A model generated the notes under the pieces. The model saw nothing but the letters and a program-made list of their open reading frames with translations. It searched no databases and had not been told where the DNA came from. From IMG/VR virus record IMGVR_UViG_3300005253_000465, positions 1 through 45,213 of that record: DNA of 45,213 nt. The stretch is one strand, 5' to 3'. Every line of letters begins with the position of its first letter. Position 1 is the first letter of the stretch. Below are positions 5,915-44,883 of the stretch, one piece after another. This DNA comes from a virus. Both the position numbers and the translations under genes were made by a program.

Positions 5915-6095
5915 ATTGCTTATAAAATTAATGAAAACAATGAAGTGTGATCATTTAAATGGGAATTTCAAGCATCACGATGCCCATGGCATGTACGTTT
6001 GCGATGAGTGCGATGATGCTGTGACTACTCCGATTTCCCCGCCGGTTATAAAGGAAATCAAAGCTCATTTAGACGGGATAAACGGAAAGGAGTAG
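5898..6095 (+). CDS. Small zinc-finger protein
   Basis: 65 residues, start MDKATELL borrowed in style from the upstream 5210 gene (see repeat entries). A likely zinc site is built from CDH, HHDAHG and CDECDD (about 17-40), typical of short phage C2H2/C2HC proteins. AGGAGG site 8 nt upstream. Function unknown. Confidence 0.6.
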   Translation: MDKATELLIKLMKTMKCDHLNGNFKHHDAHGMYVCDECDDAVTTPISPPVIKEIKAHLDGINGKE

Positions 6096-6097
6096 AA

Positions 6098-6325
6098 ATG
6101 TCGAAGATTACACTGAAAACACCTGTTCAGTATGATGAATGCGCTCCACAAAAATGCAATCAATGCCAGGGGGATATATTTCTTCATGATGGCGAAAAGG
6201 CCGGTTCGTTGCCCCCGGAGCATCCGAAAAATCCAACCACCGAAACCTTGTATTTTACTTTCGGTGTCAGCTATTGCAGGGAATGCGGCTTGGAACGCGG
6301 GAAACCGGCTCGGATAGTAAGCTAA
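6098..6325 (+). CDS. Small zinc-ribbon protein
   Basis: 75 residues with two CxxC knuckles (CNQCQG about residue 20 and CRECGL about residue 63), the two halves of a zinc ribbon, and GKPA after the second. Start chosen by AAAGGAG just upstream; it follows the previous stop by 2 nt. No family recognised. Confidence 0.65.
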   Translation: MSKITLKTPVQYDECAPQKCNQCQGDIFLHDGEKAGSLPPEHPKNPTTETLYFTFGVSYCRECGLERGKPARIVS

Positions 6326-6414
6326 GGGTTGTGCGGTGGATGGGGAGAGAACGGTTTACAGTTCCCGGTCCTCAGTTTACGGTTGAAAAAACAGCGAAAA
6401 AAGGAGGACCCGGA

Positions 6415-6672
6415 ATGAAGATATTCAGAATTGAAGATTTTTCGGATTCGGAAATAGAGGAGGTAAAATCGGTACTGGCAGAACGGCTCAAGGATCTTAT
6501 TTTTATGAACGTAAAAGAGAAAGTCGGTGAGGTTATCGAAGAGCTAAAATCGACCGGGCTTTCAGAAATAGACACGATTAATATTAAGTATACTTTTGAA
6601 TTGATCGGCGGCGATATTTTACAGATCGTTGGAAGGGTCAGACGGAAAGCTATAGAGGAGGATCCGAAATGA
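6415..6672 (+). CDS. Hypothetical protein, helical
   Basis: 85 residues starting MKIFRIEDFSDSEIEEV behind AAGGAGGACCC. An in-frame extension back to 6274 overlaps the zinc-ribbon gene and contains low-complexity intergenic text, so it is not used. Acidic and mostly helical, ending in a basic/acidic tail. The stop overlaps the next start (ATGA). Not recognised. Confidence 0.6.
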   Translation: MKIFRIEDFSDSEIEEVKSVLAERLKDLIFMNVKEKVGEVIEELKSTGLSEIDTINIKYTFELIGGDILQIVGRVRRKAIEEDPK

Positions 6673-7106
6673 AAGAAATACCCATAGTGAACTTTAGGAA
6701 AACCGAAATAATCGGCAAGGTCAGTATAAACGACTCAACTCAGGCTTTATATCAGGCTTTATCATCCGGTGTCTTTCGTATTGCGAGGGGGGACATAAAA
6801 GAGAACGATGATGGTTCTGTCGGTATTGTAGAATTCATCATTGTACCTCGACATGTTTCTTTTTCTCGGTCAGGTTCGATAAAATATCCCGATGGGGAGA
6901 AGGAGGTTATTATGCGAAATCTATTAAGTGATGCTGAAATAAAGGCAATGGAAAAAGAACTGGCAGCTAAAACAAATACATCTATGGTTGCCCTCCCAAC
7001 AGGACGAGAATATTGGGATGTCAATAGGATTGTCGCGACGCTTAGATACTTCCAATGTATAGAAGAAAAATATAACAAATTGCGGAAGCAAAAGGATTCG
7101 GAATGA
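6669..7106 (+). CDS. Hypothetical protein
   Basis: 145 residues, N-terminal part beta-rich (about 1-75, IVNFRKTEIIGKV...VEFIIVPRHV), C-terminal half helical and charged. Good GAGGAG site upstream and ATGA overlaps with both neighbours, so it belongs to the same translationally coupled chain. No recognisable motif. Confidence 0.55.
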   Translation: MKEIPIVNFRKTEIIGKVSINDSTQALYQALSSGVFRIARGDIKENDDGSVGIVEFIIVPRHVSFSRSGSIKYPDGEKEVIMRNLLSDAEIKAMEKELAAKTNTSMVALPTGREYWDVNRIVATLRYFQCIEEKYNKLRKQKDSE

Positions 7107-9508: not shown

Positions 9509-11572
9509 ATGAAAAAGAAAAACAGATGGCAACACCGGTCAGCCGATAAAAAAAATAACAATATGAATTACCGAACACTATTGCTGCGGGTCGATAAAAG
9601 CGGCATACCGTCGAGCCTGAACGAGGAGGAGCGGTCGGTCGAAGTCGTTGCCATGACCGAGAAACCGATCGAGGTGTTCGATTATAAAAGATTTGAAGTT
9701 GTGAAAGAGGTTCTGTTGATGTCCGGTCTTGTAATGCCGAAAACAAGGCAGGTTCCGCTTTTAGATACTCATTCAAGGTACGAAACCGCCAGCGTGTTGG
9801 GATCGTTTCGAAACATGAAAAAAGAGGACGATCAGCTAGTGGGGCGAGCAATTTTTTCATCTGTACCAGAGGCGGAAAGCCCTTTTACCAAGGTTCGGGA
9901 AGGACACTTGACCGATTTTTCAATCGGTTACCGGGTGGTCGGCTCAATATGGGTGCCCGAGGAAACGACCAAAAAGATCAAGGGCCATGAATTCGAGGGG
10001 CCGCTCAGCGTAGCTACCCGGTGGCGGGTGAAGGAATTATCAATCGTTCCGATCGGAGCGGATGAGGACGCGAGGGTGCGTAATGAAACGAGAAACGATA
10101 ACATTTTGGAGGAACCTAAAATGGACGAAAAATTCAGAGAATATTTAGAGAGCATCGGCCTGACCCGGGAAGCAACCGAGGATGAGGCCTGGGCGTTTGC
10201 CGGAACCTTGCAAGCCCCGAAGGAGAAAGAAAAAAGGGATGAGGAAAAAATCGACACCGACAAGATCCGGGCAGAGGCAACGGGCGAAGAGAGAAGCCGG
10301 ATCCGGGAAATCGATGCCATGTGCAAGAGATATGAGCTTTCTGACATGGCTGATGACCTGGTCCGTGAAGGGACGCCCATTCTTGAAGCTAGGGAGAAGG
10401 TCCTGACCCGGGCTGAAGAAAATTGGGTTGAAAAGGAAACGAAGAGAAAGGACCGCCCGATGATCGAGATCGGGAAGGACGAAAGGGATAAGTTCCGGGC
10501 GGCTGTCGGGGATGCCTTGACATTACGGGCCGGCATGGAGATCGAAAAGCCCGCCCCCGGCGCAGACGAGCTGCGGGGGTACACAATGGTGGAGATGGCC
10601 AGACTTTGCCTGCGGAACGCCAATGAAAAAACCGCCGGCAATGTCATGGAGATGGTCGGACGGGCCATGACCGTATCGGATTTTCCGTACCTTTTGGCGA
10701 ATGTGGCGCATAAAACCCTGTTCGAGGGTTGGAATACCCAGGAAGAGACCTGGCCGATTTGGTGCGGTACCGGGTCTGTATCGGATTTCAAGACCCATTA
10801 CAGCCCACGGATCTCCGAAGCCGACGACCTCGAAGAAGTGCCGGAAGAAGGGGAATACCGGTACGGGAAGAGGACCGAGGCCCAGGAAAGCTACTCGGTC
10901 GTAACCTATGGCAAACTGTATGCCATCACGCGCCAGGCCATCATCAACGATGATCTGAACGCCCTGTCCAACCAGCCAAAGGCCCACGGAGAGGCGGCGG
11001 CCCGCAAGGTCGGCGATGTGGCGTATGCGGTTTTGACCGCCAACGCGGCAATGGGGGATGCGGTCGCCCTGTTTCATGCGAATCACAGCAACTTTGTGGA
11101 CCATGCATCGGGCGCGGCCCCGGGAATTTCTACCATCGCGGCCGGCGTTCTGGCCATGAAAAACCAAACAGACCTGCGGGGTCTGCGGAGCCTGAATATT
11201 CAGCCAAGATTCATGCTGGCTCCAAACGCTCTTGAGGGTGCGGCAGAGGTCTTTTTTAGATCCGAGAGGTTTTCCGATGCAAGCACGATCGCTACGGACT
11301 CCTCCATGGCCAGCACACAGGTTAATCCCTATGCCGGTACATATTTGACTCGGGTCTATGATGGCCGCCTGGATGATAATGATGCGCTCCAATGGTATTT
11401 GGCTGCAGCCAAGGGCAAGACTGTAATCGTATTTTTTCTCAACGGGATTAAGAAACCATACCTCGAAACAAAAAAGGGGTGGAGCGTCGACGGTGTCGAA
11501 TACAAAGTCCGGATCGATGCCGGCGCCAAGGCAATGGACTGGAGAGGCCTGTACGAAAACGACGGCAATTAA
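9509..11572 (+). CDS. Fused prohead protease and Mu gpT-like major capsid protein
   Basis: 687 residues, a polyprotein. Residues about 20-195 are an HK97-type (U35) prohead serine protease with a DTHSR box (His88) and DFSIGY (Ser138). About 200-345 is charged and coiled-coil-like, with the character of a scaffold/delta domain. About 360-687 matches the Mu-like major head subunit family (FPYLLANVAHKTLFEGW, TRQAIINDDLNAL, FHANHSNFVDH, MLAPNALEGAAE). The protease is expected to cut itself and the scaffold away during head maturation. Protease-capsid fusions are known, but a Mu gpT-type shell inside a lambda-type packaging set is a mosaic combination. Start behind GGAGCG; an internal ATG at 9563 is an alternative. 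Confidence 0.9.
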   Translation: MKKKNRWQHRSADKKNNNMNYRTLLLRVDKSGIPSSLNEEERSVEVVAMTEKPIEVFDYKRFEVVKEVLLMSGLVMPKTRQVPLLDTHSRYETASVLGSFRNMKKEDDQLVGRAIFSSVPEAESPFTKVREGHLTDFSIGYRVVGSIWVPEETTKKIKGHEFEGPLSVATRWRVKELSIVPIGADEDARVRNETRNDNILEEPKMDEKFREYLESIGLTREATEDEAWAFAGTLQAPKEKEKRDEEKIDTDKIRAEATGEERSRIREIDAMCKRYELSDMADDLVREGTPILEAREKVLTRAEENWVEKETKRKDRPMIEIGKDERDKFRAAVGDALTLRAGMEIEKPAPGADELRGYTMVEMARLCLRNANEKTAGNVMEMVGRAMTVSDFPYLLANVAHKTLFEGWNTQEETWPIWCGTGSVSDFKTHYSPRISEADDLEEVPEEGEYRYGKRTEAQESYSVVTYGKLYAITRQAIINDDLNALSNQPKAHGEAAARKVGDVAYAVLTANAAMGDAVALFHANHSNFVDHASGAAPGISTIAAGVLAMKNQTDLRGLRSLNIQPRFMLAPNALEGAAEVFFRSERFSDASTIATDSSMASTQVNPYAGTYLTRVYDGRLDDNDALQWYLAAAKGKTVIVFFLNGIKKPYLETKKGWSVDGVEYKVRIDAGAKAMDWRGLYENDGN

Positions 11573-11610: not shown

Positions 11611-11630
11611 ACCGCCCATCCAGGGGCGGT
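11611..11630 (+). other. Hairpin before the decoration genes
   Basis: ACCGCCC-ATCCAG-GGGCGGT is a perfect 7-bp stem with a 6-nt loop, not followed by a T run, so more likely an RNA-processing or attenuating hairpin than a full terminator. GGGCGGTTCAA is repeated before the second decoration gene at about 12063, without the left arm. Confidence 0.5.
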
Positions 11631-11658
11631 TCAACTAAATATTTCGGAGGATAAAAAA

Positions 11659-12048
11659 ATGCAACAAAGCGCATTAGAAAATTACATGAAGGTTGCTCAG
11701 TATGAGTACAGTTTCGCAAAGCATGGCGGAGTGGTCGGGGCGATTACGGTCGGGCCGAAGTTGCTTCCCAAGGGGGCAAAAATCGTTCACGGCTTTGTGG
11801 ATGTTTCGGTCGCTGTTGTAGGGACCACATCTACTATCCAGCTTAAAGTGACCGGGACCGATGATATTTTGGCCTCTACAGCCGAAGCCACGATGTCAGT
11901 CAATGCCTTGATCGATTGTGTCCCGGATTTTACGGCAACCAATATGGTCATCGTGGCGGCAGCGGCTAACCTGATTGTAACGGTCGGGACCAACGTTTTA
12001 ACCGCAGGTGTTTTTACGGTCAACCTGTTTTACGTGATAACCGAGTAA
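11659..12048 (+). CDS. Decoration-like head protein, tandem copy 1
   Basis: 129 residues, beta-rich and low in charge, with a conserved N-terminus (SALENYMKVAQYEYSFAKHGG) and C-terminus (LTAGVFTVNLFYVITE). Position directly after the capsid gene is where lambda gpD-type stabilising proteins are encoded, and the size fits a capsid decoration or vertex protein. It is about two-thirds identical by eye to the next protein. CGGAGG site upstream. The function rests on position and size, not on a recognised motif. Confidence 0.6.
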   Translation: MQQSALENYMKVAQYEYSFAKHGGVVGAITVGPKLLPKGAKIVHGFVDVSVAVVGTTSTIQLKVTGTDDILASTAEATMSVNALIDCVPDFTATNMVIVAAAANLIVTVGTNVLTAGVFTVNLFYVITE

Positions 12049-12096
12049 GCCGGCTTTGGTAGGGCGGTTCAATTATGTTTTTTGGAGGACATTAAA

Positions 12097-12489
12097 ATGG
12101 AACAAAGCGCATTAGTAACCAACATGAAAGTCGCTCAGTATGAGTACAGCTTTGCCAAACACGGCGGGGTCACAGGCGAGATTACAGTCGGACCGAAGCT
12201 GCTCCCCAAAGGAGCGAAGATCTTTCAGGGTTTTATCGATGTCTCAGCTGCCGTTACTTCCGGCTCATCGGCCACCATACAGTTAAAGGTGACCGGTGCG
12301 GATGACATTCTAGCTTCGACCGGTAAGTCCAGCTTTTCTTTAGCGGCCCTTTTGGATGTCGTGCCTGTTGGAACGGTTGCAACGATGGTAATCGTGGCGG
12401 CAGCGGCAAACCTGATTGTGACGGTCGGCACCGCGGACCTGACTGCGGGGATTTTTACGGTCAACCTGTTTTACGTCATTACCGAGTAA
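12097..12489 (+). CDS. Decoration-like head protein, tandem copy 2
   Basis: 130 residues from ATG 12097 behind TTGGAGGAC. Paralog of the preceding protein: same start (EQSALVTNMKVAQYEYSF) and same end (GIFTVNLFYVITE), with the centre (residues about 55-95) more diverged. The leader GGGCGGTTCAA is duplicated too, so the duplicated unit is gene plus leader, about 430 nt. The divergence suggests an old duplication kept by selection, possibly two subunits at different capsid positions. Confidence 0.6.
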   Translation: MEQSALVTNMKVAQYEYSFAKHGGVTGEITVGPKLLPKGAKIFQGFIDVSAAVTSGSSATIQLKVTGADDILASTGKSSFSLAALLDVVPVGTVATMVIVAAAANLIVTVGTADLTAGIFTVNLFYVITE

Positions 12490-32492: not shown

Positions 32493-32545
32493 TGGTCGGG
32501 ACGACTGGATTTGAACCAGCGACCCCAGCGTCCCGAACGCTGCGC
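32493..32545 (-). other. attP core: 3' part of a tRNA-Pro(CGG) gene
   Basis: On the minus strand these 53 nt read as the anticodon arm (stem CAGCG/CGCTG, loop TTCGGGA with anticodon CGG), variable region, T arm (CTGG, TTCAAAT, CCAG) and acceptor 3' strand ending in CCA. Upstream, where the D arm and 5' acceptor strand should be, similarity to tRNA-Pro stops. It abuts the integrase gene (40 nt from its stop) and has phage genes on both sides, as expected for attP. Integration would restore the host tRNA 3' end. A full tRNA gene is not present here. Confidence 0.85.
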
Positions 32546-32584: not shown

Positions 32585-33691
32585 TCATTTGACAGCCCTC
32601 AGTTTGGGGATGTCAGGGCTGCCGGGCGCTGACTTGCCAAGCGGGGGCAGCTTGCTTATGGCATCCCGGGCGAGTTCCATATCGATGTGTTGATAGATCC
32701 TGGTCGTGGTCTCGGTACGGGTGTGGCTCAAAAGTTCCGATGTTGTTTTAAGATTTGCACCCTTGCCAAGGAGGATTGAGGCGAATTTATGCCGGAAAGC
32801 ATAGGGCGGCATACGCCTGGTTATTCCGGCTTTCTTTTTTGCGGTGATGAACGACTTCTTGATCGATGAGATCGGCCGGCCTTTGTATTCGATGATATAG
32901 GTCTGATTGTCCTGGTTCATCCACCTCATAAGGTACCCGAAAAACTCCTCATGCAGAGGAACTTCCCGTTTTTTTAGGCCGCCTTTTCGGGCGGATCTGA
33001 TCAGGATTGTTCGATCAGTCCAGTTGATATCATCGAAAGTCAAGACAAAGAGCTCGGTCCCGGGGCGAAGGCCGGTGAAATAACAGATAATGATGGCCCG
33101 TTCAAGGTGTGGAGGGGAATGCTCAAGGATAGCAAGGATCTCATGGTGAGCCGGGGGTTGGATGATCTCATCGTCACGTTTCGGCATTTCATATCCCTGG
33201 ATCGGGTTGCGAAGGATATAGCGCCGCTTTGCAGCCCAGTTTAAAATCGCTTGAATGATGGACAATTCACGATGAACGGTTGTGGCCTTGATGTTTCGTG
33301 GAGGGATCAGGGGGTTTTTGAATGTCTGAACGGTATTTAACCGCTTGTAAATATATTGATCGATCCGGTATGGCGTTACCTGGGCGATCGGCAGGTGTCC
33401 TATTTCCGGAAGGATGTTCCCGGTGAGTTTGTAAATGAGATCGTCTTTTGTGGTCGCCGATATGTTCCCCTCTTTGGCGACCGTGTATGCTTTTGCCAGC
33501 TCCTGAAAGAGGGGCCCTGACCGCCCGGGTTTTGGTGTCGTTTTTGTGGTTTCAAGGATTTCCTGGTTTCGATCCCGGGCTTTCCGTTCAGCCTCGAGGC
33601 CGCGGCCAAAATATTCCTGAGTTTTGTTTTTTCGGCCGGGGATCCGGTACTGGCAGATCCACCTTCCATCTTTTCTTTGGATGACGGACAT
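32585..33691 (-). CDS. int: Tyrosine recombinase integrase
   Basis: 368 residues. N-terminal arm-binding part (about 1-60, RKDGRWICQYRIPGRKNKT), SAM-like core-binding domain (60-165), and a catalytic domain with Arg209 (FTGLRPGTEL), a basic beta-hairpin (RSARKGGLKKREVPL), Arg300-His301 (PYAFRHKFAS), His323 (LSHTRT) and nucleophile Tyr333 (YQHID). The first His of box II is Tyr297, a substitution common in this family. It recombines attP, 40 nt from its stop, with a host tRNA-Pro site. No clear ribosome site; it follows the zinc-ribbon gene by 4 nt, so coupling is likely. Confidence 0.95.
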   Translation of the reverse strand: MSVIQRKDGRWICQYRIPGRKNKTQEYFGRGLEAERKARDRNQEILETTKTTPKPGRSGPLFQELAKAYTVAKEGNISATTKDDLIYKLTGNILPEIGHLPIAQVTPYRIDQYIYKRLNTVQTFKNPLIPPRNIKATTVHRELSIIQAILNWAAKRRYILRNPIQGYEMPKRDDEIIQPPAHHEILAILEHSPPHLERAIIICYFTGLRPGTELFVLTFDDINWTDRTILIRSARKGGLKKREVPLHEEFFGYLMRWMNQDNQTYIIEYKGRPISSIKKSFITAKKKAGITRRMPPYAFRHKFASILLGKGANLKTTSELLSHTRTETTTRIYQHIDMELARDAISKLPPLGKSAPGSPDIPKLRAVK

Positions 33692-33694
33692 CGT

Positions 33695-33883
33695 TTAAAA
33701 ACCAAATAGGCTCACGGCCCGGCTGAATTTCCACAGGCCGTATATCAGGAAGCCCAGGGAACCCATTGTCAGCAGGGTGATTATGACATTAAACGGGGTC
33801 TTTACCATGGCCCCGCAATGAGGGCATTTATCGGCCTTTGATGAAACGGGCTTTTCGCATTCGTGGCAGTTGATCAGGGGCAT
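33695..33883 (-). CDS. Zinc-ribbon membrane protein
   Basis: 62 residues (an in-frame ATG 12 nt upstream would give 66). The better start, behind GGAGGG, gives MPLINCHECEKPVSSKAD, then CPHCGAMV: a zinc-ribbon_2 pattern. One membrane helix follows (NVIITLLTMGSLGFLIYGLW). Short zinc-ribbon/TM proteins are widespread in bacteria with unknown roles. Cotranscribed with prepilin and integrase. Confidence 0.7.
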   Translation of the reverse strand: MPLINCHECEKPVSSKADKCPHCGAMVKTPFNVIITLLTMGSLGFLIYGLWKFSRAVSLFGF

Positions 33884-33904
33884 CGAACCCTCCATCCCCA
33901 GGCG

Positions 33905-34549
33905 TCAAAACCACAGGTTTCGGGATTGGATTCTCGTGGTTAGCGCACGTTCGACTGCGCCTTTTTTACCAGCTGGAAACCGAACTTTTATGGTTAAGCG
34001 GATCTCTCTGATGTCTTCAAGCTCGATCGCAGCAACCGGCGTTGTGATGAGGGCACCGTCTTCATCATGATAGCTGAAGAGGGGATCATCGTCAAGGGAA
34101 TTATTGGCGATATTATAAGGCCCAAGCGGAATGAACACATAATCGATTAATGTATTCTGCTCCGGGGCTCCCTCTCCTTCACCTAAAATTTGATCAATCC
34201 GATTATTCGGCCGATCATAAAAATAAGTTATTCTCTCGTCGTTATCGTCGATCGATCCATCCAAATTGATATCTATGGTAAAGCGGATATTGTCATCCTC
34301 AGCCTTTATAATCCCGAAATTATCACTTAAAGTGGGATCGAGGCCGGCCATCCGGATGTCCCTGGTTATAAAATCCATTGCAGCCCGCAAGTCCTGCTGG
34401 GCATTGGCCTTAACCTCCTCAGCGGTGTATGATGTGGATAGTTTTATGAAGAGGCCAGCCAAAGCCGCAAACATCACTGAGAGCATGGCGATGACCACCA
34501 GTAATTCAACCAGGGTAAAACCCTTGGTCTGTTTGGCTAATAAATTCAT
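33905..34549 (-). CDS. PilW-like type IV prepilin
   Basis: 214 residues. Short leader ending in a prepilin peptidase site (KG/FTLVELLVVIAML) with Phe methylation site and Glu at mature position 5, then a hydrophobic helix. The rest matches the pilus assembly PilW-type minor pilin pattern common in deltaproteobacteria (AQQDLRAAMDFITRDIRMAGLDP, DNIRFTIDINLDGSIDDNDE, DIREIRLTIKVRF). Strong AAGGAGGG start. Minor pilins prime pilus assembly and sit at the tip. It lies in the phage lysogeny operon between repressor and integrase, so it may alter host pili, e.g. to block superinfection (inference). A 63-nt piece of this gene recurs at 43911-43973. Confidence 0.9.
   Translation of the reverse strand: MNLLAKQTKGFTLVELLVVIAMLSVMFAALAGLFIKLSTSYTAEEVKANAQQDLRAAMDFITRDIRMAGLDPTLSDNFGIIKAEDDNIRFTIDINLDGSIDDNDERITYFYDRPNNRIDQILGEGEGAPEQNTLIDYVFIPLGPYNIANNSLDDDPLFSYHDEDGALITTPVAAIELEDIREIRLTIKVRFPAGKKGAVERALTTRIQSRNLWF
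34013..34075 (-). repeat. Prepilin-derived 63-nt segment, source copy
   Basis: Read on the minus strand, this segment (starting AGCTATCATGATGAAGACGG) is 58/63 identical to 43911-43973 on the plus strand. It encodes SYHDEDGALITTPV and then AAIELED, a normal part of PilW-type minor pilins. Confidence 0.95.
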
Positions 34550-34677: not shown

Positions 34678-35073
34678 TTAAGTTATTTTTTTTTTGGGCT
34701 CTATGAGCAACTTTCCTTGATCTTCCACAAGTGACTTTTTTGGTTTTATAACCGCAATCATTCCTTTCAAAGAGACTTTTATCATTTCTTTTTGTTCAGA
34801 ACTAAGCCCTTCAAGATCCAAAAGTATCTCGTTCATCTCCTTCTTCCATCCCGTGGGTCCGATCGTTGGGATTTGTTTGTCGGCTTCTTTCCCTGTAAAA
34901 GTTGCTGAATATATATAATCAATAAATATTGAAAATGTTTTCGATGGTTTTTTCTTGCCGGTTTCAATCCCAGATATGACCTGCTGGCTTACTCCAAACT
35001 TTTCCCCAAATTTTTCTTGGCTATAACCCATTGATTTTCTAAGACTTAATACTTTATCCGATAAACTTTTCAT
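34678..35073 (-). CDS. XRE-family phage repressor (CI-like)
   Basis: 131 residues. HTH_3 domain at about 4-60 (LRKSMGYSQEKFGEKFGVSQ, QVISGIETGKKKPS), then a helical region (about 85-115, EILLDLEGLSSEQKEMIKV) and a basic tail. No LexA/S24 peptidase domain, so induction would not follow the RecA self-cleavage route of lambda CI. It is divergent to the Cro-like gene and first in the minus operon repressor-prepilin-zinc ribbon-int. It is the expected lysogeny maintenance regulator. The gap to the prepilin gene (34550-34677) is 128 nt and AT-rich. Confidence 0.8.
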   Translation of the reverse strand: MKSLSDKVLSLRKSMGYSQEKFGEKFGVSQQVISGIETGKKKPSKTFSIFIDYIYSATFTGKEADKQIPTIGPTGWKKEMNEILLDLEGLSSEQKEMIKVSLKGMIAVIKPKKSLVEDQGKLLIEPKKKIT

Positions 35074-35943: not shown

Positions 35944-36152
35944 TGCCCTTACAAACAATCACAGCAGAAGACGAACTGATACACGACATCGACCAGATGA
36001 TTGCCACGCTGAAATTGAGGCGAGCGGCTATCGTTGCCCGGAGGCCTGCGCCTGTTAGTCGGCGGCCCGGGGATACCAAGATCACTCACAAGGGGCGTGT
36101 ATGGGATTTTGATTTATGCACGAAAGGCAAAAAGAGAGGGAAAAAATCATGA
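35943..36152 (+). CDS. Small basic hypothetical protein
   Basis: 69 residues, coupled to the previous gene by TAATG. Helical N-terminus (DELIHDIDQMIATLKLRRAA) and a basic C-terminus (CTKGKKRGKKS). Not recognised. Confidence 0.5.
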   Translation: MPLQTITAEDELIHDIDQMIATLKLRRAAIVARRPAPVSRRPGDTKITHKGRVWDFDLCTKGKKRGKKS

Positions 36153-36304
36153 TGCTTGAAATGATGTTCGATTGGTTATGGCACAGATTTTTAGGGGCCA
36201 TGCTTTTTACGCTTGGGGTTGTCCTGGCCTATGTTGCGGCTTGGCTTTTATCAGAAGCCATCGAGTCGTACCAGGCGGCACAACAGGCGCTTTATTTGAG
36301 ATGA
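36149..36304 (+). CDS. Small membrane protein, paralog 1
   Basis: 51 residues from ATG 36149 (36152 is equally possible); a longer frame from 36116 overlaps the previous gene. N-terminal MLEMMFDWLWHRF, one or two hydrophobic spans (AMLFTLGVVLAYVAAWLL), C-terminal EAIESYQAAQQALYLR. The same ends, with a different membrane core, occur in the gene at 36838-36990. Function unknown; early membrane proteins of this size can act in exclusion. Confidence 0.55.
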   Translation: MMLEMMFDWLWHRFLGAMLFTLGVVLAYVAAWLLSEAIESYQAAQQALYLR

Positions 36305-36321
36305 AAGGGGGTGAAAAAACG

Positions 36322-36616: not shown

Positions 36617-36850
36617 ATGTCAATGGAATTAAAATTGGAAATCAAACGCTTAAAAGATGAGATAAAGATTACTGAAAATTGGTTGATGACTTCCAATAAC
36701 TTACTTGAGGAACAATACCGGGTTATGGATGAAATCCCAGCGTGTTCCGTCCATGGCAACCGTTGTATCCCCCACGCGGTGGAATGGTTATCTCGTATCA
36801 GAACCCTGGGCCAGATTATCTATGAAGAGGATAAGCGATGCTTGAAATGA
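36617..36850 (+). CDS. Small coiled-coil protein with CxxHxxxC
   Basis: 77 residues. Charged helix (ELKLEIKRLKDEIKITENWL), then ACSVHGNRCIPH, a possible metal site. GGAGGG upstream. Overlaps the next tiny membrane gene by 13 nt. Not recognised. Confidence 0.5.
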   Translation: MSMELKLEIKRLKDEIKITENWLMTSNNLLEEQYRVMDEIPACSVHGNRCIPHAVEWLSRIRTLGQIIYEEDKRCLK

Positions 36851-36990
36851 TTTTCGATTGGGTATGGAAACGGTTTTTCGAGATTGTGATGCTAACAACG
36901 GCGCTAATCCTGATCACCTTTTCAGTATGGTGTTTCCTTGAGGCCATCGCACCGTATCAGGCGGCGCAACAGGGGTTTTATTTGAGATGA
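36838..36990 (+). CDS. Small membrane protein, paralog 2
   Basis: 50 residues. MLEMIFDWVWKRFF, a hydrophobic core (MLTTALILITFSVWCFL), then EAIAPYQAAQQGFYLR. N- and C-terminal ends match the 36149 gene closely at DNA level while the membrane core differs, and both end in TTGAGATGA. ATGA couples it to the Dam methylase. The pair probably arose by duplication, and the cores then diverged. Confidence 0.6.
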   Translation: MLEMIFDWVWKRFFEIVMLTTALILITFSVWCFLEAIAPYQAAQQGFYLR

Positions 36991-37853
36991 AAGACGCACC
37001 GACGAGACCGGCGATGAGATATCACGGCGGAAAATGGAGAATCGCCCCATGGATTATCAGCCATTTTCCAGAACATAAAGTTTACGTCGAGCCGTATGGC
37101 GGCGCGGCCGGTGTGCTTTTGAGAAAGCCTAGAAGTTTTGGGGAAGTCTATAACGATTTGGATGGGGATGTAGTTAATTTTTTCCGAGTTTTACGTACGC
37201 CTGCCCAAAGAGAACGATTAATAGAGGCGGTCCGGTATACCCCGTACGCTCGCAGCGAATTCAAGGAAGCGTACGAGCCTGCGGATGATCCTGTTGAGCG
37301 AGCCCGTCGTTTATTAATTCGGGCTGAAATGGGGTTCGGGTCTGCCGGCGCATCGAAGGGGACAACCGGTTTTCGCTGCCAATCCCATCAACATTTAGAC
37401 AGAGATCATCCGGGAAGAAGCGTACAAATGGCATGGGCCGATAAGGGAAATGTTCTAAAGAAAGTGGCAGCACGGTTTCAGGGAGTGATGATCGAGAATC
37501 GACCGGCGATGGAGGTAATATCGTATTGGGACCGGGAGGAAGCGCTGTTTTATATCGATCCGCCATATCTTCCGGGAGTGCGGGACTCAAAAACCCGCAG
37601 CGTTTACCGGCATGAAATGACAGAGGATCAACACACCGACATGTTACAAGCGATTCGGGCAATAAAAGGCATGGTGATTTTAAGCGGGTATTCGTCTGAT
37701 TTATATAATTCTATTTTGTCGAACTGGTACACGCAAAGCAAAAAGGTGCGGGCCGCCGGGAATCGAGGAACGGTTATGCGCACAGAGCGATTGTGGATGA
37801 ATACCGCAGTTGTCGACCGGTTGAATAGAAGGGATCCCCTTTTTAATGGATGA
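36987..37853 (+). CDS. DNA adenine methylase (D12 class)
   Basis: 288 residues. Class D12 N6-adenine methyltransferase: N-terminal RYHGGKWRIAPWII (AdoMet-binding region), YVEPYGGAAGVLL (motif I, about 33-45), and the catalytic IDPPYLPG (DPPY 191-194). It would methylate adenines, commonly at GATC, protecting phage DNA from host restriction or marking replicated DNA. No paired restriction enzyme is visible, so it is a solitary methylase. ATGA-coupled to the upstream membrane gene. Confidence 0.9.
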   Translation: MKDAPTRPAMRYHGGKWRIAPWIISHFPEHKVYVEPYGGAAGVLLRKPRSFGEVYNDLDGDVVNFFRVLRTPAQRERLIEAVRYTPYARSEFKEAYEPADDPVERARRLLIRAEMGFGSAGASKGTTGFRCQSHQHLDRDHPGRSVQMAWADKGNVLKKVAARFQGVMIENRPAMEVISYWDREEALFYIDPPYLPGVRDSKTRSVYRHEMTEDQHTDMLQAIRAIKGMVILSGYSSDLYNSILSNWYTQSKKVRAAGNRGTVMRTERLWMNTAVVDRLNRRDPLFNG

Positions 37854-39047: not shown

Positions 39048-39749
39048 ATGAATTTAAAGGAGCTAAAAAAAGAAACGCCGCCCAAATGGCGTGTTCAATC
39101 GTTCAGTAAACGCAAACCTGTGGCTTCCTGTGTACCCTACATCGATGCGCGAACTGTAATGGATCTGTTGGATGAGGTTTGCAGTCCCGAGAACTGGCAA
39201 GATGACTATAAGACCATTGATGGCAAATTATTTGCAGGTATTGGGATTTGTAATCCAAACGGTTTTTTCGCGTGGAAGTGGGACTGTGGTGTTGAAAGTA
39301 AAAAAGAGAAGGAAAAGGGCCAGGCCTCAGACGCCTTCAAACGAGCTGCCGTGAAATGGGGTATAGGTAGGTTTATTTATACCATAGACGTCCAATACGT
39401 TGATGCAAACGAGAAGAAAACCGACAGTAATTATCCTTACTGTATAGACGCCCGAAAACAACGAATATGGGATTTGACAAAACACATTAACGAGAAAGTC
39501 GCTGGGAAGAGGCCGGAGGTTACGGAAGACAAACGCTCAGAGTTTTCCGCTCCATCTTCCCGGAATGATGCCGACCAGACCGCTCACGAAGAACTGGTCA
39601 AGGCTGTTTTGCAGTTTAAGGCGGTAGACGCGCAAAAATATTTAGAGACAATCAAGGGTGGAAACCCAGAAAAGGCGTCAGATGATCAGCTGAAGAAGTG
39701 GCTCAGTGCGTTTGATCAAATCGTTGAAGAGGATAATATTCCGTCTTGA
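39048..39749 (+). CDS. Rad52-family single-strand annealing protein
   Basis: 233 residues. The N-terminal about 130 residues match the Rad52/Rad22 family core: VPYIDARTVMDLLDEVCSP, WQDDYKTIDGKLFAGIGI, ASDAFKRAAVKWGIGRFIY. Such phage proteins form rings that anneal complementary strands and act with a nuclease in recombination-dependent replication. The C-terminal tail is acidic and helical. No dedicated 5'-3' exonuclease is seen next to it; the VRR-NUC protein at 43096 may partner it. Confidence 0.85.
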   Translation: MNLKELKKETPPKWRVQSFSKRKPVASCVPYIDARTVMDLLDEVCSPENWQDDYKTIDGKLFAGIGICNPNGFFAWKWDCGVESKKEKEKGQASDAFKRAAVKWGIGRFIYTIDVQYVDANEKKTDSNYPYCIDARKQRIWDLTKHINEKVAGKRPEVTEDKRSEFSAPSSRNDADQTAHEELVKAVLQFKAVDAQKYLETIKGGNPEKASDDQLKKWLSAFDQIVEEDNIPS

Positions 39750-43437: not shown

Positions 43438-43454
43438 ATATGGAGGGTTTGAAA

Positions 43455-44207
43455 ATGGAGAAGCTAATGTATTGCGAAGCAAATAAATGCAAATTAACGC
43501 AGGCTGCCTGTATCGCTCGCAAGGCGCTTGTTAAAAAACAGGTCGAGGATGAATCACAGCCCAAGCCACGGGGCAGACCGAGGAAGAAAAACACGTTTAT
43601 GGACCTCGAAAATTGCCTGAAATGTACGGGCGGGTTGAGAGAGCTACGACCCGGACAAGAGCCCGGAATAACCGACGAGGGGCTTGGGGCGAAAACGTGT
43701 AAAAAATGTGAAGAGGAGAAGAGCAGCCATTATTTTGACCGCGGTAAAAGTATCTGTGTGCTCTGCATTATAAGAAAGAAGGAGGAGGCGAAAGAGAACA
43801 TAGAAAAAGAGGAAAAAAAGCGGAAGAAGAAGGATCTTGAAGATTTTATAGAAGCGGAAACAACTTCGGACCAAATAAAGGCAGACGTAAAAAAGGTGGA
43901 CGATATCATCAGCTATTATGATGAAAACGGCGCCCTCATCGCAACGTCGGTTGCTGCGATCGAGCTTGAAGACAAACAAATACAGTCTGATGGAATATTA
44001 CAAATAGACCTTTCCCTCGTTGCCGGCCTGAAAGACGCCTTAAAGAAAGCGGCCGATGAAGACGTCCGAACGGTCGAGCAGCAAGCGCTGTTCATGCTGA
44101 AAGTTGGGCTGCATGAGGATGTAGATTTGGCCGTATCAAGACGATTTAAAGAAATAGATTATTCAAAATACCCATCTAATTGGCGGACCGACCCGAATGT
44201 TAAATAA
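43455..44207 (+). CDS. Zinc-finger protein with embedded prepilin segment
   Basis: 250 residues from ATG 43455 behind TGGAGGG. N-terminal Cys sites (CEANKCKLTQAAC, CLKCTGG) around a basic RGRPRKK, a second zinc site (CKKCEEEK, CVLCII), a charged coil (about 115-140), then about 150-175 a segment reading SYYDENGALIATSV and AAIELED, and a helical C-terminus (about 185-250). The segment at 43911-43973 is 92% identical in DNA, in the same frame, to part of the PilW-like gene. Nothing else in this protein resembles a pilin. Function unknown. Confidence 0.6.
   Translation: MEKLMYCEANKCKLTQAACIARKALVKKQVEDESQPKPRGRPRKKNTFMDLENCLKCTGGLRELRPGQEPGITDEGLGAKTCKKCEEEKSSHYFDRGKSICVLCIIRKKEEAKENIEKEEKKRKKKDLEDFIEAETTSDQIKADVKKVDDIISYYDENGALIATSVAAIELEDKQIQSDGILQIDLSLVAGLKDALKKAADEDVRTVEQQALFMLKVGLHEDVDLAVSRRFKEIDYSKYPSNWRTDPNVK
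43911..43973 (+). repeat. Prepilin-derived 63-nt segment, captured copy
   Basis: 58 of 63 nt identical to the complement of 34013-34075, in the same reading frame. The five differences are transitions, four changing an amino acid or kept silent, and no frameshift occurs. Homology stops at GAC on the 3' side (CAAATA here, ATCAGA in the pilin gene). Confidence 0.95.
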
Positions 44208-44220
44208 GCAAAAAGGAAAC

Positions 44221-44883
44221 ATGTACGGTTTCGTGGATGCCACCTGGAATGTGGTCAAGGGGAAGTGCCCCCACGGTTGCACGTATTGTTACATGAAGCG
44301 GTTCGGCGAACAAGCGGAGCTGCACTTTGACGAATCGGAGATGAAAACGGATCTCTATAAGTATGGGGAAAACCAATTCATCTTTGTCGGAAGTTCCTGC
44401 GATATGTGGGCGGAAGATGTCTTATTCAGGTATAGAAGCCGAACGATTAACCATTGTAATAAATATCCTAAAAACAAGTATTTGGTTCAAACCAAAAACC
44501 CGCAGGGCGTCCTGGTTATGCTGCTGTTCCATGATTTTGTTTTCCCAAAAAACACCACCATCGCCACCACCATCGAAACCAACCGGGCCTATCCACAGAT
44601 GGGCAAGGCGCCGCCGATCGAAGAAAGGATCCGCGCGCTCCGTCAAATAAAAGAGCTTGGCTTTAAAACCATGATCACGATCGAGCCGGTCATGGATTTT
44701 GATATTATGCCCCTAATAGCCTGTATATTTTATGCAGGGCCGGACCAGGTCAACATTGGCGCCGACAGCCAAGGCCATAAATTACCAGAACCAAGCGCAG
44801 AGAAAATTAAAACGCTGATCGAGAGGCTTTCTAGGTTTACCGAAGTCAAACGAAAGCCGAATTTGAAGAGGCTGTCTATTTAG
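44221..44883 (+). CDS. DUF5131 (phage Gp37/Gp68-like) radical-SAM protein
   Basis: 220 residues from ATG 44221 behind AAAGGAA (an in-frame ATG at 44197 overlaps the previous gene). A CxxxCxxC iron-sulfur motif (CPHGCTYC, residues 16-23) follows DATWNVVKGK. Then come IFVGSSCDMWAED, YLVQTKNPQGV, ATTIETNRAYP, MITIEPVMDFDI and QVNIGADSQGHK, the order seen in DUF5131/SPL-like radical-SAM proteins. Expected to bind a [4Fe-4S] cluster and S-adenosylmethionine; substrate unknown, possibly nucleic acid or nucleotide modification. Confidence 0.85.
   Translation: MYGFVDATWNVVKGKCPHGCTYCYMKRFGEQAELHFDESEMKTDLYKYGENQFIFVGSSCDMWAEDVLFRYRSRTINHCNKYPKNKYLVQTKNPQGVLVMLLFHDFVFPKNTTIATTIETNRAYPQMGKAPPIEERIRALRQIKELGFKTMITIEPVMDFDIMPLIACIFYAGPDQVNIGADSQGHKLPEPSAEKIKTLIERLSRFTEVKRKPNLKRLSI

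Follow-up and report, generated by a model that had tools for sequence, protein, structure and literature searches.

Rickettsia palindromic elements are mini-insertions that lie in frame, and shufflons are invertible switches of gene ends. In temperate phages, sub-gene mosaicism swaps small gene fragments more often than whole modules, the Rad52-like proteins of these phages recombine short, diverged sequences, and traces of flanking homologous recombination are seen in merely about one-third of the mosaics (PMC3945230). The case analysed here concerns a 66-nt segment found in two genes of one phage genome, a PilW-like prepilin gene (the donor) and an unrelated gene (the recipient), and is most readily understood as a small capture within the genome, of an ordinary kind, that is real, in frame and directional. 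It shares with sub-gene mosaicism the small size of the fragment, the short or diverged homology at which it is found and the presence of an encoded Rad52-like protein. In contrast to those mosaics, whose fragments are common to different phage genomes (PMC3945230), the present segment would have moved between two unrelated genes of a single genome, and it has no clear flanking homology. Like a Rickettsia palindromic element it is short DNA in frame within an unrelated protein gene, but it has no palindrome and no family of copies and is instead a protein-family motif of its donor gene. The likeness to shufflons lies in inverted repeats within coding regions and in the proximity of a tyrosine recombinase and of a gene of pilin type, whereas here the repeats have diverged, the likely attP is located elsewhere and the partner gene provides no alternative pilin end. 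Finally, the donor shares with the PilW-type minor prepilins of type IV pili the cleavage motif, the RNL end and the conserved C-terminal strands, but sits in a phage between repressor and integrase, outside any pil cluster; the recipient gene falls outside this family.

The window, meaning the whole stretch of DNA that was analysed, is an IMG/VR virus record 45,213 bases long. Its genes for terminase, portal, capsid, tape measure, tyrosine integrase and repressor are those of a temperate tailed phage. The features that enter the comparison are the following.

32493 to 32545, minus strand: likely attP, immediately downstream of the integrase gene and corresponding to the 3'-terminal 53 nt of a tRNA-Pro(CGG) gene (98% identity to chromosomal copies; ARAGORN; partial Rfam tRNA match)
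32585 to 33691, minus strand: tyrosine integrase (PF00589, E = 3e-22)
33695 to 33895, minus strand: gene for a small zinc-ribbon protein between prepilin and integrase (weak Zn_ribbon/DZR matches)
33905 to 34549, minus strand: PilW-like minor prepilin gene, 214 aa, intact (PF07963, full-length relatives, PilW profile)
34012 to 34077, minus strand: the segment in its native place, at residues ~158-179 towards the C-terminus of the PilW-like prepilin (F-Y-D...P-V...LEDIR motif conserved in chromosomal PilW relatives)
34678 to 35073, minus strand: HTH repressor-like gene, upstream of the prepilin gene on the same strand (HTH_3, E = 7e-10)
39048 to 39749, plus strand: Rad52-like single-strand annealing protein that may have carried out the copying (Rad52_Rad22, E = 1.4e-11)
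43440 to 44207, plus strand: recipient gene, 255 aa (translation; weak AT_hook and RHH_5 matches)
43909 to 43974 (loosely 43906 to 43974), plus strand: the prepilin segment as a derived copy, read in frame within the recipient gene (61/66 nt match; direction from the PilW alignment)

A blastn comparison within the window finds 61 of 66 nt identical, ungapped and with E = 2e-22, between positions 43909-43974 (plus strand) and 34012-34077 (minus strand), and a looser alignment extends this to 63/69 nt (91%) between 43906-43974 and 34012-34080. The first-pass annotation had claimed a match of 58 of 63 nt and 17 of 21 residues, in the same frame, to a PilW-like gene on the opposite strand, and both blastn and a check of the frames confirm it: the two copies occupy the same codon phase in their genes, and over the 63-nt core (43911-43973) exactly these 58 nt and 17 residues are identical (SYYDENGALIATSVAAIELED versus SYHDEDGALITTPVAAIELED). 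The five nucleotide differences between the copies, read on the coding strand as recipient/PilW, are T/C, A/G, C/T, G/A and T/C, which makes them transitions throughout, and four of the five are non-synonymous. The longest identical run shared by the copies is 27 nt. Beyond the segment the downstream flanks are unlike each other, with similarity stopping at GAAGACA and a shuffle p of 0.83 over the next 36 nt, while upstream the similarity fades and is marginal at best (shuffle p = 0.087). The edges of the segment are thus sharp between otherwise unrelated loci, as in sub-gene mosaicism, and no clear microhomology was found at either of them (upstream p = 0.087, downstream p = 0.83).

The donor gene, 33905-34549, is assigned as a full-length PilW-type minor prepilin. 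Its product has the class III prepilin leader GFTLVE and an N-methylation motif (N_methyl PF07963, E = 7.5e-7; TIGR02532 above cut-off), and it scores 159 bits against a PilW profile built from 32 chromosomal relatives. In a class-wide search, residues 4-212 align with chromosomal PilW genes at E values down to 2e-34, and this alignment takes in the C-terminal strands and the RNL end. Across 297 genomes of a PilW-bearing phylum and 231 of the class, the best PilW relatives are ~38-44% identical; one of the genome searches for PilW used a query of shortened, joined pieces. A structure model of PilW built from seven sequences reached a pLDDT of 42, too poor for use.

The recipient protein runs from a Cys-rich N-terminus through an AT-hook-like PRGRPRKK, a zinc-ribbon-like part with CxxC...CxxC and a charged coiled coil to the segment and then the C-terminus. 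Its AT_hook match (E = 0.16) lies below the cut-off, and the match of its C-terminus to RHH_5 (E = 0.015) reaches 15.5 bits against a cut-off of 26. A single-sequence structure model with a pLDDT of 43 is too poor to place the segment. From the AT-hook-like, zinc-ribbon-like and possible RHH parts, the protein looks cytoplasmic and DNA-binding. The description of this host gene as unrelated to pilins holds up, since a Pfam scan detects in it no prepilin leader or N_methyl match and the PilW profile gives 4-5 bits, located over the segment. Relatives of the recipient were found neither in IMG/VR, GenBank phages, plasmids, 395 genomes of the phylum and two orders, with one of the viral searches using a query of shortened, joined pieces, nor beside related terminases in prophages. 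Within the collections searched the recipient is accordingly classed as an orphan gene, and because no relative was found, an empty pre-insertion site was not seen.

The direction of the transfer can be read from the chromosomal relatives of the donor. Full-length chromosomal PilW relatives carry F-Y-D-E...P-V...L-E-D-I-R at the position of the segment, and the closest of them (L091) has FRYFDEAENDLGLPVPALNLEDIRGIDITLTI at the site where the phage PilW has FSYHDEDGALITTPVAAIELEDIREIRLTIKV. Past the segment's end both these relatives and the phage PilW run on into a conserved IR-x-I-x-I-T strand. The recipient tracks PilW up to ELED and then leaves it (ELEDKQIQSDG), so that it diverges exactly where the PilW relatives enter the conserved strand. 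Because the relatives share the landmarks of the segment and continue beyond its end while the recipient departs, PilW is the native setting of the segment and the recipient copy is the derived one, and the alignment shows the capture to have gone from prepilin to recipient. The pair is therefore assigned as one native PilW copy, with native PilW sequence on both sides of the segment, and one derived recipient copy. The capture of a small, in-frame prepilin segment that the first-pass annotation had proposed is borne out in this respect, as the segment's motif belongs to the chromosomal PilW relatives, and its reading of the capturing gene as unrelated also stands; the two roles that it had suggested for the piece, a pilin mimic or a mobile mini-segment, find no support.

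The segment probably results from one short, accidental copying of a piece of pilW within the genome, harmless and passive in its consequences, an account preferred to a pilin mimic or mobile element. A fragment of the PilW-like prepilin gene that the phage itself carries would have been copied once, by insertion or replacement, through short non-homologous recombination or a template switch, and the Rad52-like annealing protein of the phage may have been the agent. To judge from the weak domain calls, the piece would have landed between the coiled coil and the ribbon-helix-helix-like C-terminal part, where an insert with an open frame could be tolerated. The two copies would then have drifted ~8% apart after the capture. 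What remains is most likely a passive linker insert of 22 residues in a DNA-binding or regulatory phage protein, with a role unconnected to pilins.

A near-identical record, L003, provides two further sequence changes. At 6054-7058 it is longer by ~737 nt, which lie between 268-nt repeats of 98.5% identity, where the window has 6054-6321, a difference that the two sequences mark as a copy-number change between direct repeats. L003 also lacks 35 nt in the capsid/protease gene (window ~9715-9749), with AGGTTC at the flanks; the length of this gap is no multiple of three, and it would be either a frameshift variant or an assembly error. The repeat change and the 35-nt deletion are counted as other short-repeat events of the same phage population and in that sense support the copying event.

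The proposed donor could be questioned, as the recipient residues Y161 and N164 occur commonly among PilW relatives but not in the PilW of the phage, so that the differences between the copies may have arisen on both branches; this would fit a pilW gene of the host or of another phage as the source. An outside donor of this kind is nevertheless unlikely: the 297 phylum and 231 class genomes held no closer donor, their best relatives being those at ~38-44% identity, and for a pair of 92%-identical copies in one genome the simplest explanation is a single source within that genome. An artefact of assembly or a chimera has to be considered for any metagenomic contig, the more so as inverted repeats with 27 nt of identity can mislead short-word assembly and the region of the segment lies outside the part of L003 that was compared. 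A misjoin would copy the sequence exactly, yet five differences are present within 66 nt; native PilW sequence on both sides of the segment excludes a flip of the interior, and two joins inside 66 nt that preserve a frame of 255 codons are implausible, which leaves an artefact very unlikely. As a control, 12 more distant phage loci bearing a DUF5131 gene (L005-L016) yielded two long-range inverted repeats with >90% identity, and neither joins two unrelated protein genes, the one in L016 consisting of leader-like intergenic pieces and the one in L010 lying in short, doubtful ORFs. The inverted orientation of the copies, one of which lies ~320 bp upstream of the tyrosine integrase gene, might further suggest a shufflon-like switch in which the integrase flips the intervening 9.8-kb region or uses the copies as att cores. 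This arrangement is given an extremely low probability, because the likely attP lies on the opposite side of the integrase gene, the native context of PilW on both sides of the segment implies that the present state is unswapped, an inversion would reverse the early gene block relative to the repressor region, and the copies differ at 5 of 66 positions. The suggestion of a mobile mini-element that enters genes in frame, as Rickettsia palindromic elements do, takes its appeal from a short, in-frame sequence in two unrelated genes and is almost certainly wrong. The phage holds two copies and no more, an exact match to a 22-nt core of the segment was not found in IMG/VR, and an 81-nt query gave no match in 395 genomes of the PilW-bearing phylum; the segment forms no hairpin (fold z-scores of +0.90 and +0.61), and one of the two genes has it as an ancestral motif of the protein family.

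Whether the captured peptide has been selected turns on the frame and on the differences between the copies. The first-pass annotation had inferred a selected function, and the corresponding explanation is a pilin mimic in which the PilW piece of the recipient binds a pilus assembly partner, for example shutting down host pili during infection. The frame has been kept over ~8% divergence with no indels or stops, and a phage prepilin gene adjoining repressor and integrase makes it plausible that pilus control matters to this phage. Even so, the mimic is very unlikely: an open frame is cheap to keep, as three of the six reading frames of the segment are open, and the recipient lacks a prepilin signal and resembles a cytoplasmic DNA-binding protein, whereas in PilW the segment is part of the periplasmic pilin head. 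With so many frames open, in-frame retention needs no selection on the peptide, and the in-frame survivor is one of three tolerated outcomes. The high share of non-synonymous differences (4/5) also speaks against the mimic, and one of them puts serine where PilW has P171, a proline shared by about half of its 12 closest relatives. At most one synonymous change in five has a probability of 0.46 under neutrality and of 0.003 at dN/dS = 0.1. These differences look like relaxed constraint, although five are too few for positive selection to be dismissed. A related idea, that the recipient is a phage regulator using the minor-pilin piece as bait for a cytoplasmic or membrane partner of pilus assembly and so coupling the state of the pilus to the phage programme, is highly improbable.

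Two further candidates were set aside. The copies do not look like a TR/VR pair of a diversity-generating retroelement, as their differences are not confined to template adenines, and antisense pairing of the two mRNAs fails because both bear the sense copy and are hence non-complementary.

The surroundings of the donor raise a question of their own. On the minus strand the order is repressor-like gene, prepilin, zinc-ribbon protein gene, integrase and tRNA-Pro attP, and the interval between repressor and integrase is the usual place of lysogen-expressed genes. From this placement, the phage prepilin is probably a lysogenic-conversion gene, a candidate for acting on the type IV pili of the host; it matches weakly the PHROGs pilin family phrog_3433, which is listed under moron genes. 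Over its 53 nt the site at 32493-32545 is 98% identical to copies on chromosomes of the PilW-bearing phylum, six of which ARAGORN identifies as tRNA-Pro(CGG), and this tRNA end beside the integrase is likely the attP; the match may also point to the host group.

Other features of the window were recorded separately. The window and L003 begin at the same base, which suggests either that the genome has a fixed end or that the two assemblies share a break. Positions 36151-36307 and 36837-36993 form a 157-nt repeat of ~70% identity, 686 nt apart, that represents an old local duplication, and 11624-12048 and 12062-12489 are a tandem gene duplication with ~72% identity. The DUF5131 / radical-SAM-like gene at 44197-44883 on the plus strand occurs in many otherwise different phages (13 IMG/VR loci) and has weak matches to the PADLOC candidate-defence models PDC-M41B and PDC-M30B.

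The segment offers a clean case in which one protein gene has gained a short peptide from another, unrelated one in the same genome while the donor is still present; divergence usually blurs gains of this kind. Proof that the peptide acts would make this an instance of mimicry by micro-capture; at present it serves to illustrate the way in which new linker sequence enters phage genes. The phage prepilin as a lysogenic-conversion gene is a separate question, and perhaps a more interesting one than the 66-nt scrap.
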